Position numbers and translations under genes: made by a program. Shown piece by piece: positions 28,087-34,898 of a stretch of 37,712 bases of DNA. Source of the DNA: a virus. Every line of letters begins with the position of its first letter. Position 1 is the first letter of the stretch. The stretch is from the IMG/VR virus record IMGVR_UViG_3300009620_000014, positions 1 to 37,712 of that record. One strand, 5' to 3'. The notes under the pieces are model-generated. The model searched no databases. It was not told the DNA's origin and was given only the letters and a program-made list of their open reading frames with translations.

Positions 28087-29025
28087 TTAAAAACCTCCAA
28101 AAGATCCTACAGGAGGGACTCCGCTAGTAGCTGCCAAGAAATCCGACACTACCTCTGTTTCGGCATCTATATCCGCTATAACCTGTGAGCCTGAATTTCC
28201 CATCATTGGCAAAGGATCAGTTGTACCGTGTTCCAGTACGGCTTCCCACCCAGCCAAGTTGTCCCGTGTGAAGGGACCACCCGCTAAGGATGCTGGGGAG
28301 TACTTTCCTAGATCCCCAACTCGTACCTCTTCCATATTTAATATTACTTGAATTCTTCTTGGCAACAAGGTACTTTGATCGTACCCCTGCTTGTCATCAA
28401 CCTGAATGTTATAATTTTTAACAATACAGGGGACATCCTGATATAGTATACCATGAGTGAGCCTAACAATAGGAGGTCCCCAAGAAGGGTCAGTGGCTTT
28501 ATTTGACACACTAGTTCTTATAATATTAATCCAATAAGTAATAATATCAATAATTTTAGTTCTTGAGGTTGCCCCTTTAGGACCTATAGTTGTCATATTT
28601 CTATACTCATTATCTAGAAACTGACTCCCAGCAAAAGCAGTAACAGTACCTAGATTTTTTGTTTTTGTTGGCTGTGGAGTATCGAACGCTTTTTTCTTTT
28701 CTTCAGTCGTAGTCTCTTTAGTTGCGGCCACTCCCTGTCCTGGGTGTAAATCTAATATATGAGGGAGAGACATAGCAAAAGTTATTTTTAGCTGCCTAGA
28801 CCCAGCCCCAGTATATGCGTACATGTCACTAGACCTGTTGAACGGGCTATAAGTTGTATACCTTGCTTTCTTACTTTCTACTACTTGAATATTCTCTGAG
28901 AAAGGAAGAGTTACTATTGTAGCTCCACCTATATCAGGAGACTCAGTATAGTAAAATTTTAGGAAAGATCTTTCTGGTAACTTTCTATAATCACTAGCGT
29001 GCTTATGTGAGTCTATTTTTGCCAT
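28087..29025 (-). CDS. Virion protein, possible tail-tube/baseplate junction component
   Basis: 312 residues. The N-terminal half has a beta-rich segment with VTLPFSENIQVVESKKARYT, then SPFNRSSDMYAYTGAGSRQL and KITFAMSLPHIL. The second half contains VRLTHGILYQDVPCIVKNYN, then a strand ending QVILNMEEVRVGD, and a Gly/Pro-rich tail. The strand pattern recalls tube-like or hub-ring proteins. In T4 the genes following the tape measure are 48 and 54, the tube initiator and cap, and this gene follows the tape measure candidate by TAATG. I cannot tell which of those it equals; the junction role is inferred from position. Confidence 0.55.
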   Translation of the reverse strand: MAKIDSHKHASDYRKLPERSFLKFYYTESPDIGGATIVTLPFSENIQVVESKKARYTTYSPFNRSSDMYAYTGAGSRQLKITFAMSLPHILDLHPGQGVAATKETTTEEKKKAFDTPQPTKTKNLGTVTAFAGSQFLDNEYRNMTTIGPKGATSRTKIIDIITYWINIIRTSVSNKATDPSWGPPIVRLTHGILYQDVPCIVKNYNIQVDDKQGYDQSTLLPRRIQVILNMEEVRVGDLGKYSPASLAGGPFTRDNLAGWEAVLEHGTTDPLPMMGNSGSQVIADIDAETEVVSDFLAATSGVPPVGSFGGF

Positions 29026-30434
29026 TATGGTGTACTTAGTCCTGCTGTATTTAATCTAGCTTTAACTGTCATTCTTAAGTCGTGCCTCATTCTTGCAACC
29101 TCATTCTTAATGTCTACGCGCTCATCGGAGGCTGGGTCCGCAGCAGTACCCGCCCCTAAAGTTAAATGCTCAATTAACGAAGTTAGTGCTATAGTAGATT
29201 CAGTAATTTGGTTCTTCTCTAGCTTCTCTTCCAAAACTTTATCTGCCAGGACTTTTGTAGAATCAGCAGTATCTTTAGTGCTTTTATCTATTCCGAAAAG
29301 GAAATCAGCTATTCCACCAAAGGCTCCGCCAAAAATACCTAGTACGAAATTTGAAATAACACTAACGATATCCATAATCCCAGTCATTATGGGTATTAAT
29401 ATTCTGCCCAGGTTCGTCACTAAATTGGTAAAGTTATCTATATTGGCTACAAAGAACCTCTGAAACGGTTCTACAAATCTCGCCCAAACTGCCCCTAAAG
29501 TGTTTGTAAATTTATCAGTTGCCACACCAAATTGTTCAGCGGCAAGCGCTGCCTCCATGTCTACACTTTCTAATGCCCTCTGTAAAGCTTGAATACTAAC
29601 AATTCCTCTTGATGAGAACACTCCTTCACCAATACGCAACCCTACGAAAGCGTCTCCCGTCTCTGTCATGGGTCCAACCAAATTTCTAATACTTTCTGCT
29701 GAGATCCCAATCATGTTGGTTAGAGTAGCCAAATCCATATTCATGGTTGTCTCTAAATCCCTGAACCCCTCAACACCCAAGAGAACGGCTCTAGATAATC
29801 CTTCACCAGTTCCATCGGTAAAGATCTTCATAGCCGCCCCAAGGTGCTTCTCAAACCCAGGACCCACTAAACCCGCCAGAGTCTCAACAGATTCAGCGTA
29901 AGCAGCACTGCCAGTCCTTCCAGCAGCGTCAGCAATAGCCCCGACTGTGGCTAGCTGTTCCTTAACAGCTCCTAAAGCTTTTATTAAATTACCAGTTGAA
30001 ATATGGAAAGTTTCACTTAGAACCATAGTTCTTTTTACAAGATTTTCTCTGGAGGTATTTGAGATCCCAGTGACAATTTGTAGTTCCCGCATGGAACCAA
30101 GCATAGCACCAGCATTCTGCCCAGTAAATTTCATTTGGGTAAACAGCTTACTGGTCTGCTCAGTGTTACCCTTCAGACCCACTTGCATGGCGTTTACCTG
30201 CCCCTCTAATGCAGCGGCAATACCCAGAGGCGTGTCTTTAAATGTTGTCTCTACAGTTTTTAGGTTCTGACTAAGAGAGGTGTTAATGCGAATGGAAGCT
30301 GTATTTAGAACAACCGCTTCCTCTGCCAAAGATTGAAGAGGGTCTACTATAGCAACTAAGTTGGTAAAGATATTACCTAACTTACCAATTTGTTTACCAA
30401 GTCTTCCTATTGCTGCTTTTTCGTTTTCTGGCAT
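29025..30434 (-). CDS. Tail tape measure protein candidate (gp29-like)
   Basis: 469 residues, predicted almost wholly helical, with many Ala, Thr, Ile and Leu and few aromatics. A strongly hydrophobic stretch lies at about 343-382 (ILIPIMTGIMDIVSVISNFV, then LGIFGGAFGGIADFLFGI), like the membrane-active segments of tape measures. The C-terminus is charged and helical. Tape measures set tail length at about 0.15 nm per residue, so a tail near 70 nm would be expected if all residues count. T4 gp29 has 590. The place between the gp26-like chaperone and the hub genes agrees. It is joined by TAATG to the genes on both sides. Confidence 0.75.
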   Translation of the reverse strand: MPENEKAAIGRLGKQIGKLGNIFTNLVAIVDPLQSLAEEAVVLNTASIRINTSLSQNLKTVETTFKDTPLGIAAALEGQVNAMQVGLKGNTEQTSKLFTQMKFTGQNAGAMLGSMRELQIVTGISNTSRENLVKRTMVLSETFHISTGNLIKALGAVKEQLATVGAIADAAGRTGSAAYAESVETLAGLVGPGFEKHLGAAMKIFTDGTGEGLSRAVLLGVEGFRDLETTMNMDLATLTNMIGISAESIRNLVGPMTETGDAFVGLRIGEGVFSSRGIVSIQALQRALESVDMEAALAAEQFGVATDKFTNTLGAVWARFVEPFQRFFVANIDNFTNLVTNLGRILIPIMTGIMDIVSVISNFVLGIFGGAFGGIADFLFGIDKSTKDTADSTKVLADKVLEEKLEKNQITESTIALTSLIEHLTLGAGTAADPASDERVDIKNEVARMRHDLRMTVKARLNTAGLSTP

Positions 30435-31229: not shown

Positions 31230-32000
31230 TTATCTCTTAGGTTTCTTAGCTCTCTCATCCAAGCGGGAGTTTACGGTATGGGGGTCGTTAAATATCGGGC
31301 ATAGCTGCTTGTAACTACACCAGTTACAAAACTTGTTTTCAGAGGCACAGAAATCAGTCTTCTTTAGTTTTCTTATACGCCAAACTTCGTCCACAATAGT
31401 TTTTATATAATTGTGGATTTGTACTGTACTATACCTGCAAGTTACCAAGTTATCGGTTATGGGATAATAATGTGCTATAACTATCTTATCAATAGGAACA
31501 TTGTATAACTTGTGTATGGCGTAGCAATAGCCCTTCATCTGGGTATCCTGATAAAGCTCAACTTTTGTTTTTTCCCGTTTAGAGGTCTTATAATCAATGA
31601 TTAGATATCCGTCATCACTGCCTTTAATTACTCTATCAATAATACCATTCAAACTAATATCATCTCTAACATCAATTTTATAGACTAATTCAGTAGCTAC
31701 TGTTTCTTCTAAAGAGGCATTAAACCTCAAAAAGTTTTTTAAGCAAAGATCAATTTTTGGAGTATAGGTATTGTTAAACTTATAATTAGGCTTAAACTCT
31801 TTAGCTAAGTCTTCTAGTTCTTGGTAGGTTGTAGCTTCAACCCCCTCTTCCAAAATCTTATGTATATACGAACCAAAGTGCAAAGGATCAGTTGTAAGAC
31901 CCTCGTCCTCTTTAAGGTAATCAATATATTTGTATCGGTACTTAAGCTTACACTGCTTAAAAGTTGAATATTTCGACTCAGATATCGTATTTATGAACAT
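31230..32000 (-). CDS. PD-(D/E)XK exonuclease, Cas4/AddB-like with Fe-S cysteines
   Basis: 256 residues. The RecB-family nuclease motifs are in order: GSYIHKIL with His47, NGIIDRV with Asp122, LIIDYKTSK with Asp136 and Lys138, and QMKGYCYAI with Gln154 and Tyr158. Cys17 plus Cys225, Cys228 and Cys234 (FCNWCSYKQLCP) match the four ligands of the 4Fe-4S cluster in Cas4 and AddB. Such phage enzymes process DNA ends in recombination or degrade DNA. It has AGAGG upstream of its ATG. No other CRISPR element is near, so a Cas4 role in adaptation is not implied. The substrate and direction cannot be read. Confidence 0.85.
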   Translation of the reverse strand: MFINTISESKYSTFKQCKLKYRYKYIDYLKEDEGLTTDPLHFGSYIHKILEEGVEATTYQELEDLAKEFKPNYKFNNTYTPKIDLCLKNFLRFNASLEETVATELVYKIDVRDDISLNGIIDRVIKGSDDGYLIIDYKTSKREKTKVELYQDTQMKGYCYAIHKLYNVPIDKIVIAHYYPITDNLVTCRYSTVQIHNYIKTIVDEVWRIRKLKKTDFCASENKFCNWCSYKQLCPIFNDPHTVNSRLDERAKKPKR

Positions 32001-32030
32001 TATTTTTTAACCTCTGCTCTATTATAGAGA
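32001..32030. promoter_or_regulatory. Divergent promoter with palindromic CTCTATTATAGAG box
   Basis: The 30 bp between the nuclease (minus) and the primase (plus) hold CTCTATTATAGAG at 32017-32029, symmetric except for its central base, so the same TATTATA/TATAATA core faces both ways. On the plus side the core (32020-32026) ends 4 nt before the GTG of the primase. On the minus side it lies 19 nt before the nuclease ATG with AGAGG between. With a -10-type start, the primase mRNA would begin at or next to its GTG. Confidence 0.55.
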
Positions 32031-33035
32031 GTGAGCACTCCCAAGTATATTAGAGACTACATCTCCGAGAAATTCGGGGATACTGGGAAAATTTCTAGCA
32101 ACGGACGCGAGTTCATAATGCCGTCGCTATTTGTAGACAACGACTGGAAGCTGCATCTTAGTATTAATCTGGACACGGGGCTTTGGCAGGATTTCAAATC
32201 TGGGGAATCGGGTAACTTCACTAAATTTTATTCTATAGTAGAAAATCTACCCTATAGACAAGCGAAAGCAGAATTACTATTTAAGACTTTCCATTTAGAA
32301 GAAGATATACCCCAAGAAGCTACACAAAAAGAATTAATTGAAGAAGTAACAATAGAGTCTGATTTAAATGAATTCTCCTTACTTCCTATAGGGCCAGAAT
32401 CCTGCGACAGCGAAGAGGAAGCGGTGAGAAATTCTTGGCTATTTCTTTTTGAAAGAAAACTTTTTGATTTAGAAAATCCCAGACCTGATCAATATTATAT
32501 TTGCTTAGATGGGAAGTACGCAGGTAGAATTATAATTCCTTTTAAGAAGAATAAGTGTTTGTTCTATTTTCAAGCAAGAGCACTAGATGTTAATAGAACT
32601 CCTAAATACTTAAACCCATCTTCTGATAAAGGAGTTAGACCTTCAACAATTTTATACCCTTTCGATGAATGTGCAGACCATCTAGTTATATGCGAAGGTC
32701 CGTTAGACGCAATATCTTTACAAATACAAGGTATAAATGCCACCTGTACATTAGGATCACACCTATCTGAAATTCAACTTGACCTCTTAAAGTATTTCCC
32801 AGGAAAAATAATTCTAGGGTATGACAATGATGAGGCAGGGTATAGAGGAATAAAGAGTTCCGATAAACTACGGAAAGCAAAGATGATGTCTGAATTCTAT
32901 ATTCTTCATCCTCCTGAGGATGTAAAAGATTGGAACGAGGCCCACATCAAGGGCTATGATCTAAAGAAACATCTCAACAATATTCAAAAATATGATTACG
33001 ATTATAGAATGGATGTTGAATTTAAGAAACTATGA
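32031..33035 (+). CDS. Toprim DNA primase-like protein without zinc-finger cysteines
   Basis: 334 residues, close to T4 gp61 (342). Toprim motifs: VICEGPLDA with Glu222 and GYDNDEAG with Asp265/Asp267, then the VKDWNEA motif near 298-304. Residues 26-66 (FIMPSLFVDNDWKLHLSINL, then TGLWQDFKSGESGNFTKF) follow the shape of the CHC2/zinc-ribbon primase domain, but every cysteine position is replaced; there is no Cys in the first 120 residues. It may still prime, with altered template recognition, or act as a Toprim accessory protein. The GTG start at 32031 lacks a spaced ribosome site. The 3' end overlaps the convergent 311-aa gene by 14 bp. A gp61-type role is likely but unproved. Confidence 0.8.
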   Translation: MSTPKYIRDYISEKFGDTGKISSNGREFIMPSLFVDNDWKLHLSINLDTGLWQDFKSGESGNFTKFYSIVENLPYRQAKAELLFKTFHLEEDIPQEATQKELIEEVTIESDLNEFSLLPIGPESCDSEEEAVRNSWLFLFERKLFDLENPRPDQYYICLDGKYAGRIIIPFKKNKCLFYFQARALDVNRTPKYLNPSSDKGVRPSTILYPFDECADHLVICEGPLDAISLQIQGINATCTLGSHLSEIQLDLLKYFPGKIILGYDNDEAGYRGIKSSDKLRKAKMMSEFYILHPPEDVKDWNEAHIKGYDLKKHLNNIQKYDYDYRMDVEFKKL

Positions 33036-33957
33036 AATGCTGCCAGGGGGTTACAATCGTATCCCCCACAAGATTATACTTAACTCTCGCAGCCCATGCA
33101 CCAGCCATAGTCCCTCCAATATTAGCCTTAACAGTATCGCTACTTAAGGTTTGAATATCAGCGTTGAAGGGGCAGATAATTGTATTATCTGAGGTTACAT
33201 CAACTAGGGGTGAAGTATCTGAATAACCAGAGACTTCGTACATCCCTGGGAGGTTATCACTGTTATCGTTAACCTTTACAATTTGAACCATAGCACTGGT
33301 TATAGCTGAGTCTTTAAAAATATTTATTATAGAATCATCTATATCTTTATTTTCTACACTCACTTCTGTACTAAATTTCAAATCTCTTTTTGAACCAGAC
33401 ACAAGCTTCTTAGTTGTCAGCCTGTTGGTAGTTTGTACCATAAGAGGCTGTGTTATAGTAAAGAAGGTATCTGCATAAAGATTGAAAGCGTTAATTACTG
33501 ATTTATAGTCAGAACCCTCAAGAAGCTTTACAGTCCAAATATCAATATATTCGCCAAGGCTACTTGCTGTATTTGCTACTTCTACACCCGAACCGTGTAA
33601 AGTATACATTCCGCTAAGGCTTTTACTTCCATCAAGTATTACCGCGTATTTCCCAGTTCCAAGCTTATAAATTCCGCTGGCCTCGTTATCTGGGACATAG
33701 GCTGTAGCATCCACAGAGCTAGCGAAGTGCATACGAACCAAATCTTTGCTTAACCCACTCTTAAGCAAACCTGTACTGGCATCTACAACGGAACTTGGAG
33801 ATATATTGGCTGCTGTAGCAAAGAGAGTAACGCCACTAATGTCTACTGGATCTTGGTATACCCCGTCATTTAAAAAGAAAGCCCTTAACGCAACTCTTTG
33901 AGAAACATTAGGCCTATTATGCCTATCAACAGCGTCATAACTTCCAATCTTTGTCAT
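33022..33957 (-). CDS. Unknown virion-type protein following the gp26-like gene
   Basis: 311 residues, beta-rich, Ser/Asp/Val-rich like phage structural proteins: DISGVTLFATAANISPSSVV, SGIYKLGTGKYAVILDG, and LGEYIDIWTVKLLEG. A central part (QPLMVQTTNRLTTKKLVSGS) and a C-terminal strand region end in GDTIVTPWQHFIV. No family is recognised. It starts 6 bp after the stop of the frameshift extension, with AGAGG upstream, so it belongs to the gp26-like transcript. Its end overlaps the primase end tail to tail by 14 bp. A neck, tube or baseplate part is possible. Confidence 0.6.
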   Translation of the reverse strand: MTKIGSYDAVDRHNRPNVSQRVALRAFFLNDGVYQDPVDISGVTLFATAANISPSSVVDASTGLLKSGLSKDLVRMHFASSVDATAYVPDNEASGIYKLGTGKYAVILDGSKSLSGMYTLHGSGVEVANTASSLGEYIDIWTVKLLEGSDYKSVINAFNLYADTFFTITQPLMVQTTNRLTTKKLVSGSKRDLKFSTEVSVENKDIDDSIINIFKDSAITSAMVQIVKVNDNSDNLPGMYEVSGYSDTSPLVDVTSDNTIICPFNADIQTLSSDTVKANIGGTMAGAWAARVKYNLVGDTIVTPWQHFIVS

Positions 33958-33963
33958 AATTAT

Positions 33964-34152
33964 TTAAAAACCTCTTAGAGCGTCATTCTCTCTCTGTCTT
34001 TCTTGTTCATAGTACTTTAAGAATATCAACCTTTCTGCCCTTGTGAAAGACTTGACATCGTGATAGGTAAAACCAATCCTATGTACCAGTATATAGGCTT
34101 CAAGCAAGATAGAATCTAAAGTTAAGTTAGATTCTAGCTCACGGTAAAAAAA
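33964..34152 (-). CDS. -1 frameshift extension of the gp26-like gene (tail assembly chaperone GT-type domain)
   Basis: The -1 frame is unbroken from the slippery site (34152-34146) to TAA at 33966-33964, giving 60 residues: YRELESNLTLDSILLEAYIL, then VHRIGFTYHDVKSFTRAERL, then a charged helix ending in LRGF. It has no ATG or GTG of its own, so it can only be made as a fusion with the preceding gene (311 aa in all). The pattern of a hydrophobic helix, an aromatic-x-x-D-V turn, and T-x-x-E-R plus charged helix is what frameshifted ends of tail assembly chaperones look like. It fills a 176-bp stretch that otherwise appears noncoding. Confidence 0.8.
   Translation of the reverse strand, partial: FFYRELESNLTLDSILLEAYILVHRIGFTYHDVKSFTRAERLIFLKYYEQERQRENDALRGF
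34110..34152 (-). promoter_or_regulatory. Programmed -1 frameshift signal: T TTT TTT, 9-nt spacer, 10-bp stem-loop
   Basis: Read on the minus strand, the zero frame is GAT TTT TTT ACC GTG AGC TAG, with heptamer T TTT TTT at 34152-34146. Nine nt later a perfect inverted repeat begins: TAGAATCTAA (34136-34127), loop CTTAACT (34126-34120), TTAGATTCTA (34119-34110). The zero-frame stop TAG is the first triplet of the stem. Heptamer, short spacer and stem-loop are the standard parts of a -1 ribosomal frameshift site. Confidence 0.82.
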
Positions 34153-34898
34153 TCAGGAGTTATAGGGAGGTCCATTAAAGTGTTTTCTTTACAATGTAAA
34201 CACTGAAACTGGACTTCTGTTTGAACTCCGTACTCCTGTGATGCTATAGCATCAATTATAGTATGAACATCCCTTAAGGGTAGTTTATTAATTACTTCCG
34301 AGATGATAGCTTTATTTGAGCATCCATCAACTTCAGCTACAAATTTCCAAAGCTTTTTCATAGCCCTACTAGTGTCTACCAAAAGATCTTCATCTTCTGT
34401 CGTAGGCATCAAAACTTTTACTTCCTTCTTAAGAACAGGAAGCATAATAGACATGGGTAGAGTAAAGTCTTCAGAAACATAATTTACTGGTAGTTGTGTT
34501 AAATCAAAAGTAACATCAGTATCTTTATGGCAAGCTTTGCAGGTTATAGATGCTTGAAACTCCTCACCGTAGGAAATCTCCCGCAACTTCATTACTAAAT
34601 AAATCTTGTCCATCAAAAGTAGGTTAGAGGCCTTTAAATTAGAAAGACATCTTCCCAAAAGAAGCCCAACTGGGTTAGTGTTCCCTCCCATTTCTATATG
34701 AGAAGCAAGAACTTTCTCATCTTCAAAATTCATGGGCCTCATAGTAACGGGTTTTGTGGGATCCTCTAACGAATAAAATTTATTCCTAGAAGGCAAATCA
34801 ATTTCAACTACAGTTTCTGGGGGTAAATTCTCTAAGATCCTCCCCAGGATATCACTATCGTTAGCTTGACCAGCCTCTGGAATAGGTATATTTTCCAT
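34134..34898 (-). CDS. 26: T4 gp26-family baseplate/tail assembly protein with two CxxC pairs
   Basis: 254 residues. The pattern fits the T4 gp26-type baseplate assembly family: IDLPSRNKFYSLEDPTKPVT near 34-52, LREISYGEEFQASITCKAC at 105-123, and QFQCLHCKENTLMDLPITPD at the C-terminus. Cys120/123 and Cys233/236 probably form one zinc ribbon. The protein acts in baseplate hub or tail assembly; the frameshift extension at its end suggests a chaperone for the tape measure, like lambda gpG/gpGT (inference). AGGAG precedes the ATG. It diverges from UvsW through a 30-bp spacer; in T4, uvsW and gene 26 are also close. Confidence 0.8.
   Translation of the reverse strand: MENIPIPEAGQANDSDILGRILENLPPETVVEIDLPSRNKFYSLEDPTKPVTMRPMNFEDEKVLASHIEMGGNTNPVGLLLGRCLSNLKASNLLLMDKIYLVMKLREISYGEEFQASITCKACHKDTDVTFDLTQLPVNYVSEDFTLPMSIMLPVLKKEVKVLMPTTEDEDLLVDTSRAMKKLWKFVAEVDGCSNKAIISEVINKLPLRDVHTIIDAIASQEYGVQTEVQFQCLHCKENTLMDLPITPDFFTVS

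Follow-up and report, generated by a model that had tools for sequence, protein, structure and literature searches.

Predicted programmed -1 frameshifting in a probable tail assembly chaperone gene related to T4 gene 26

The tail assembly chaperones gpG/gpGT of phage lambda and E/E' of phage P2 are produced as a short and a long form through a -1 slip, in genes located upstream of the tape measure gene. The lambda short form makes up a coat on the tape measure protein; the tube protein is brought in by the long form, which is rare (PMC5009743). The same 2016 review describes G-T frameshifting as widespread in long-tailed phages "except T4" (PMC5009743), and a review of T4 counts both gp26 and gp51 among the hub assembly chaperones (PMC3004832). 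The tail assembly chaperones that T4-like phages use were identified by Vladimirov, Gautam and Davidson (2022, Virology 566:9-15), as cited in two later papers (PMC10885494; PMC12846349); its title states that the mechanism in T4-like phages is not frameshifting. As the PRFect paper reports it, the study found that some T4-like phages have one short and one long gene, with no frameshifting (PMC10885494), and from the sequences discussed below the two genes meant in that account would be 26 and 51. The Adele paper refers to the same study for the statement that short-form genes in T4-like phages carry poly-T slip signals (PMC12846349). A sequence-only reading of the locus described here had presented a connection of the gp26 family with the G/GT system as new. 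To the extent that Vladimirov et al. (2022) is represented in the papers that cite it, the core of this link had already been published (PMC10885494; PMC12846349).

Two other systems are close to the one described here. In the Vandenendeviridae and Andersonviridae, compared by description, a poly-T -1 site likewise lies near the end of the short-form gene, although there the site is GTTTTT, and annotations frequently treat the extension as intergenic sequence or a hypothetical gene (PMC12846349). In Bacillus phage 0305phi8-36, orf143 and orf144, for which, unlike the locus analyzed here, no frameshift has been proposed, form a two-gene short/long chaperone pair, as do T4 gp26 and gp51 (PMC2147016).

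The locus lies in a virus record of 37,712 bases from IMG/VR, the whole of which was analyzed and is referred to as the window. The relevant features are as follows.

34134..34898, minus strand: zero-frame gene of 254 aa, T4 gp26 family (PF12322), with two CxxC pairs; predicted short form (TAC-N / gpG-like), from Pfam, phrog_150 and AlphaFold
34146..34152, minus strand: slippery heptamer T TTT TTT in the zero frame, from the sequence (T TTT TTY in relatives)
34137..34145, minus strand: spacer of 9 nt (ACC GTG AGC), from the sequence
34134..34136, minus strand: zero-frame stop TAG, which doubles as the start of the 5' hairpin arm, from the sequence
34110..34136, minus strand: perfect 10-bp hairpin with a 7-nt loop, 3' of the slip site; candidate accessory stimulator (folding z -4.3)
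33964..34146, minus strand: -1 frame extension of 60 codons plus stop (YRELESNLTLDSILLEAYILVHRIGFTYHDVKSFTRAERLIFLKYYEQERQRENDALRGF), from the sequence; orthologous extensions match phrog_634
33964..34898, minus strand: predicted frameshift fusion of 311 aa; putative long form (TAC-NC / gpGT-like, T4 gp51 equivalent), from the sequence and the coverage of phrog_150 by gp51 and gp26
33022..33957, minus strand: next gene 3', 311 aa, kept at this place in relatives
29025..30434, minus strand: probable tape measure protein (phrog_305, tail length tape measure; weak, E 2.3e-4)

The zero-frame gene matches PF12322 (E 6.4e-15, 55.9 bits against a Pfam cut-off of 24.5) and phrog_150, baseplate hub (E 7.4e-18), in agreement with the assignment to the T4 gp26 family that had been made from the letters. 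On the minus strand its end reads CCT GAT TTT TTT ACC GTG AGC TAG, so that three sense codons separate the heptamer, which is in phase with the zero frame, from the stop, as had been noted. The spacer, the perfect inverted repeat and its loop could be retraced base by base, and the 60-codon open -1 frame and the 311-aa fusion that it would give were found as described. Open from 34146 down to 33964, the -1 frame fills the gap before the next gene, whose start is at 33957. The loci collected contain 347 further ORFs of 100 aa or more, and in only one of them does an in-frame T TTT TTN stand near the stop; the -1 frame of that ORF shuts after 12 codons. On this sequence evidence, the slip site and the open -1 frame of the window gene are not a product of chance.

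We consider it very probable that, as predicted from these features, this gene encodes a tail assembly chaperone and is subject to programmed -1 ribosomal frameshifting, and infer that slippage occurs at some rate and that the two forms divide the labour as follows. Most ribosomes would read the zero frame to the TAG and release the 254-aa short form. A minority would slip one base back on the two Phe codons of T TTT TTT, where both tRNA-Phe could re-pair with UUU, and 60 more codons would then give the 311-aa long form. If the parallel with lambda gpG/gpGT holds, many copies of the short form would coat the tape measure protein and the C-terminal domain of a few long forms would recruit tail-tube subunits, with neither form expected in the finished virion.

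The heptamer is conserved in the lineage of the window. Four other IMG/VR loci, L002, L004, L014 and L016, keep GAT TTT TTY at the same place, although their zero-frame proteins are merely 40-48% identical to that of the window, and with the window included the -1 extensions span 60-64 codons; the extensions have a core in common, for example LEAYILVHRVGFTY.DVKSM in L002 and L004. Outside this lineage, T TTT TTY is found in almost every -1 relative. The expectation that slip site and extension would be conserved was thus borne out in every relative of the window type and far beyond it, and nothing that the sequence-only reading had named as speaking against itself was found in the window lineage. 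The 60-aa extension of the window, used by itself in tblastn against the phage collection, is too short and too diverged and gave no match, and no relatives came to light when bacterial genomes were scanned with the window lineage. A frame change of this kind may also come from a sequencing or assembly error, which falls in homopolymer runs such as this one, or mark a broken pseudogene in what was a continuous gene. Since the change of frame recurs at these very codons in independent metagenomes and in many isolate genomes, and since a further locus, L001, is identical to the window across 4,782 nt, we regard such an error as excluded and leave this explanation only a negligible probability.

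A tblastn search and annotated records led to the cyanophages (Kyanoviridae) and other phages, in which the gp26 gene is followed by a tiny ORF annotated as "gp51, baseplate hub assembly catalyst" or by an unexplained gap. With 80 cyanophage-type loci taken from IMG/VR, the cyanophage set comprises 85 loci (81 distinct ends). All 85 have NNT TTT TTC, a count that, like those that follow, does not consist of independent trials because the sequences are akin. The codon before the two Phe codons encodes Ser, Ala, Asn or Asp and ends in T in 85 of 85; where it encodes Ser it ends in T in 77 of 77 cases, compared with 63% in the rest of these genes. For the second Phe, TTC is used in 85/85, whereas its share elsewhere is 29%. 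Beyond the heptamer, purifying selection acts strongly on the -1 reading of the extension in the cyanophage set (median dN/dS 0.094), and the differences over 200 pairs fall on codon positions 1/2/3 of the -1 frame as 2256/1155/4693. One of the 85, S-SCSM1 (L022 3150-3374), keeps T TTT TTC and has its extension in the +1 frame, which reflects either a genuine switch of mode or an indel in the deposited sequence.

This pattern bears on transcriptional slippage, in which RNA polymerase would insert an extra base while copying the T run, so that the fusion could be read with no ribosomal slip. The seven-T run of the window would suit such a process, as one extra base gives the same -1 reading. 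It is nevertheless unlikely, with only a slim chance of being the right explanation, because most relatives have six T followed by C, which is short for polymerase slippage; what is invariant is a heptamer phased with the codons, with its second Phe fixed as TTC, and this fits slippage of tRNA.

A start codon of its own would allow the extension to be translated as a separate small protein, by termination at the TAG and re-initiation. The extension had been taken to have no start; it indeed has no ATG or GTG, but a TTG is present at its 14th codon, nine codons beyond the zero-frame stop, and this is the first candidate start in the window. In L002, L004 and L014 the only early start codon is a GTG at extension codon 21, and L016 has none early. 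The cyanophage-type members offer more room for re-initiation, since 59 of 81 have a start-like codon among the first 18 codons of the extension. In the other 22, the stretch between the stop and any start is still selected in the -1 frame, with 398 synonymous against 90 non-synonymous single changes. Elsewhere in the family a start codon overlaps the stop: Cygsa01, VAP7 and D528 lack the heptamer, and their gp51-like ORF begins inside the gp26 stop (TAATG). Judged from these sequences, re-initiation is real in part of the family and possible in the cyanophages with an early start, but it fits neither the window lineage nor the 22 cyanophage-type members that lack an early start, and as an explanation for the window it is slightly less probable even than polymerase slippage. 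The -1 ribosomal frameshift remains the reading that we prefer.

A canonical -1 signal consists of a heptamer X XXY YYZ and a stimulator. The window has the heptamer with a hairpin, the cyanophages have it with a Shine-Dalgarno-like sequence, and no stimulator is common to all. The arms of the window hairpin (TAGAATCTAA and TTAGATTCTA, at 34127-34136 and 34110-34119) form the sole perfect 10-bp stem with a loop of 3-10 nt across the whole contig; its folding energy is -14.5 kcal/mol (z -4.3), and none of 200 shuffles folded as well. Lying 9 nt beyond the slip site, this strong hairpin probably makes slippage more frequent. Stems in the same place are clear in the window and L016 and weak in L002 and L004, those of the three relatives being weaker than that of the window, and no stem is present at this position in L014. 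Of the elements for which conservation in relatives had been proposed as a check, the slippery run and the -1 frame were therefore kept throughout and the stem was not; we dropped conservation of the hairpin as support and consider the hairpin accessory, because stems are weaker in L002, L004 and L016 and missing in L014.

No Shine-Dalgarno-like sequence was found upstream of the slip site in the window. In the cyanophage-type genes (L028-L107), a Shine-Dalgarno-like GAGGG or GAAGG lies about 10-15 nt 5' of the heptamer, an arrangement that recalls E. coli dnaX. The mean energy of the Shine-Dalgarno duplex in cyanophages is -6.8 kcal/mol, against -1.5 kcal/mol in control stretches of the same genes, and Gly is encoded by GGG in 27/84 codons at the site, against 5% elsewhere. 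The GAGGG just upstream may raise the slip rate in cyanophages, but the signal may in part be explained by conserved Glu-Gly residues. Downstream structure in the cyanophages shows a modest excess only.

The identity of the -1 extension can be traced through T4 gp51. PF12322 covers both T4 gp26 (8.8e-64) and T4 gp51 (3.9e-52). The match to phrog_150 covers positions 14-235 for gp26 and 13-280 of 282 for gp51, and since gp51 continues in phrog_150 beyond the end of gp26, gp51 can be described as gp26 with a tail. The family phrog_634, "baseplate hub assembly catalyst", is matched by the extensions of L002 (3.5e-5), L004 (8.2e-5) and L016 (1.2e-3), by the cyanophage extension (9e-30) and by T4 gp51 (1.2e-23). 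The window's own extension searched alone had no match in phrog_634, and Pfam returned none for it. A profile of the cyanophage extensions matches T4 gp51 at residues 209-246, and a profile of five window-lineage extensions gave no significant match to T4 gp51; when extensions of the window lineage and of the cyanophages were compared profile to profile, the probability was 86% and the E-value 5e-6. Because of the matches to phrog_634 and to gp51 residues 209-246 and of the profile-profile match, the -1 tail corresponds, by way of orthologues and profile families, to the C-terminal part of gp51.

For the short form, AlphaFold models of the window protein and of one cyanophage member (pLDDT 80 each) were compared with a library of 350,542 chains of solved structures. 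The best solved match of the window model is the HK97 tail assembly chaperone gp13 (2ob9; Z 6.4 over 92 residues, 3.9 A), with the next row at 3.2. For the cyanophage model it is again 2ob9 (Z 7.1 over 83 residues, 4.3 A), followed at 6.2 by YqbN, which we take to be a PBSX-type tail assembly chaperone. Although Z-scores of 6-7 are middling, both models pick the same protein from the library, and this protein is of the kind that had been predicted. Residues ~112-247 of the window model match LysW-type zinc ribbons, and the nearest predicted viral structure is the "baseplate hub subunit" of SP-15 (TM ~0.7). A plain Foldseek search against the PDB found nothing significant, and a search of the PDB by sequence gave no match. 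An idea involving DUF6760, from injection systems, led nowhere. The earlier proposal that the gp26-like protein is the short chaperone form is consistent with the modeled fold, the HK97 chaperone being its best solved match at a middling Z. As far as sequences and models go, both the predicted mechanism and the predicted function, that of a frameshifted tail assembly chaperone, are well supported.

Like lambda gpG/gpGT and P2 E/E', the locus has one tail gene that would give a short form and a -1 frameshifted long form, with a chaperone-like predicted fold of the short form for which HK97 gp13 is nearest. In contrast to lambda and P2, the window protein is longer and has a zinc-ribbon part, and the tape measure gene is not adjacent in the contig; no sequence similarity of the window protein to lambda gpG/gpGT or P2 E/E' was found. 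The genes after the gp26-like gene include gp53 and gp25 (tail/baseplate) and the probable tape measure gene, which lies ~3.5 kb downstream with other genes between and for which the phrog_305 match is weak. In SP-15 and LIS04 the gp26-like gene lies between the tail tube gene and the gene for a large tail protein or tape measure, and in Listeria phage LIS04 the chaperone-type gene adjoins the tape measure gene. Inside the tail module of the window, between the gp26-like and the probable tape measure genes (31230-33035), there are a Toprim-domain gene on the plus strand and a PD-(D/E)XK nuclease gene on the minus strand. The same Toprim/nuclease arrangement is seen in L002 and L004, with a helicase-like gene upstream.

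Compared with T4, the locus belongs to the same family, PF12322, with a short form and a long form that has a gp51-type C-terminal part. In T4 the two are separate genes and gene 26 has no heptamer, whereas here there is one gene with a -1 slip site. T4 gene 26 ends in GAG TTC TTT GAG TTA CTA TAA, directly followed by gene 25, and no slippery heptamer was found in it. The reservation already made, that T4 gene 26 itself is not known as a frameshift gene, therefore holds: its long form is the separate gene 51, and the frameshift belongs to the family, not to T4. An internal product, 26', is annotated in T4 gene 26 (L013 5803-6090).

Other members of the family have related heptamers. T TTT TTC occurs in Stenotrophomonas phage DLP6, Cronobacter phage S13, Vibrio phages K491 and Bakedbeans, Pseudomonas phage Milchi and the huge-phage record LR756511, T TTT TTT in XacN1 and T TTT TTG in Rhizobium phage RHph_I34. 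An extension in the +1 (equivalent to -2) frame follows the gp26-like gene in Bacillus phage SP-15, Listeria phage LIS04, Streptococcus phage GXN1 and record LR756508. SP-15, LIS04 and GXN1 have xCC CGA TTY in common just 5' of the zero-frame stop, and from its sequence this is a possible +1 site. The +1-frame extensions rank among the best background matches in the search with the -1 extension profile. Vi01 has neither the heptamer nor an ATG at the gp26 stop. The loci concerned, including those with the TAATG overlap, are listed here.

L007 4700-4925: +1-frame extension
L010 4640-4880: +1-frame extension
L008 4700-4997: +1-frame extension
L012 5720-6006: +1-frame extension
L024 2809, L112 1941, L114 1872, L113 2025: loci of the group of Cygsa01, VAP7, D528 and Vi01

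Tentatively, and with somewhat less than even confidence, we suggest that a -1 slip is a widespread and perhaps ancestral route to the long form of gp26/gp51, invariant in cyanophages, whose annotated "gp51" would be the frameshift tail of gp26. The mode of recoding would then have changed several times, to +1/-2 in SP-15, LIS04, GXN1 and LR756508, to a start-stop overlap in VAP7, D528 and Cygsa01, and to two genes in T4. The breadth of the -1 slip, with a site that reaches across cyanophages, the window lineage and jumbo phages, and the changes in recoding mode may be new and may go past the published record.

For the phages concerned, the finding would correct an annotation in very abundant marine phages, in that the cyanophage "baseplate hub assembly catalyst" would mostly be the second half of gp26, reached via a frameshift. 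T4 gp26 and gp51, long called hub assembly proteins, gain a testable role as short and long tail assembly chaperones, and a single protein family offers several strategies for producing short and long forms that may be set side by side.
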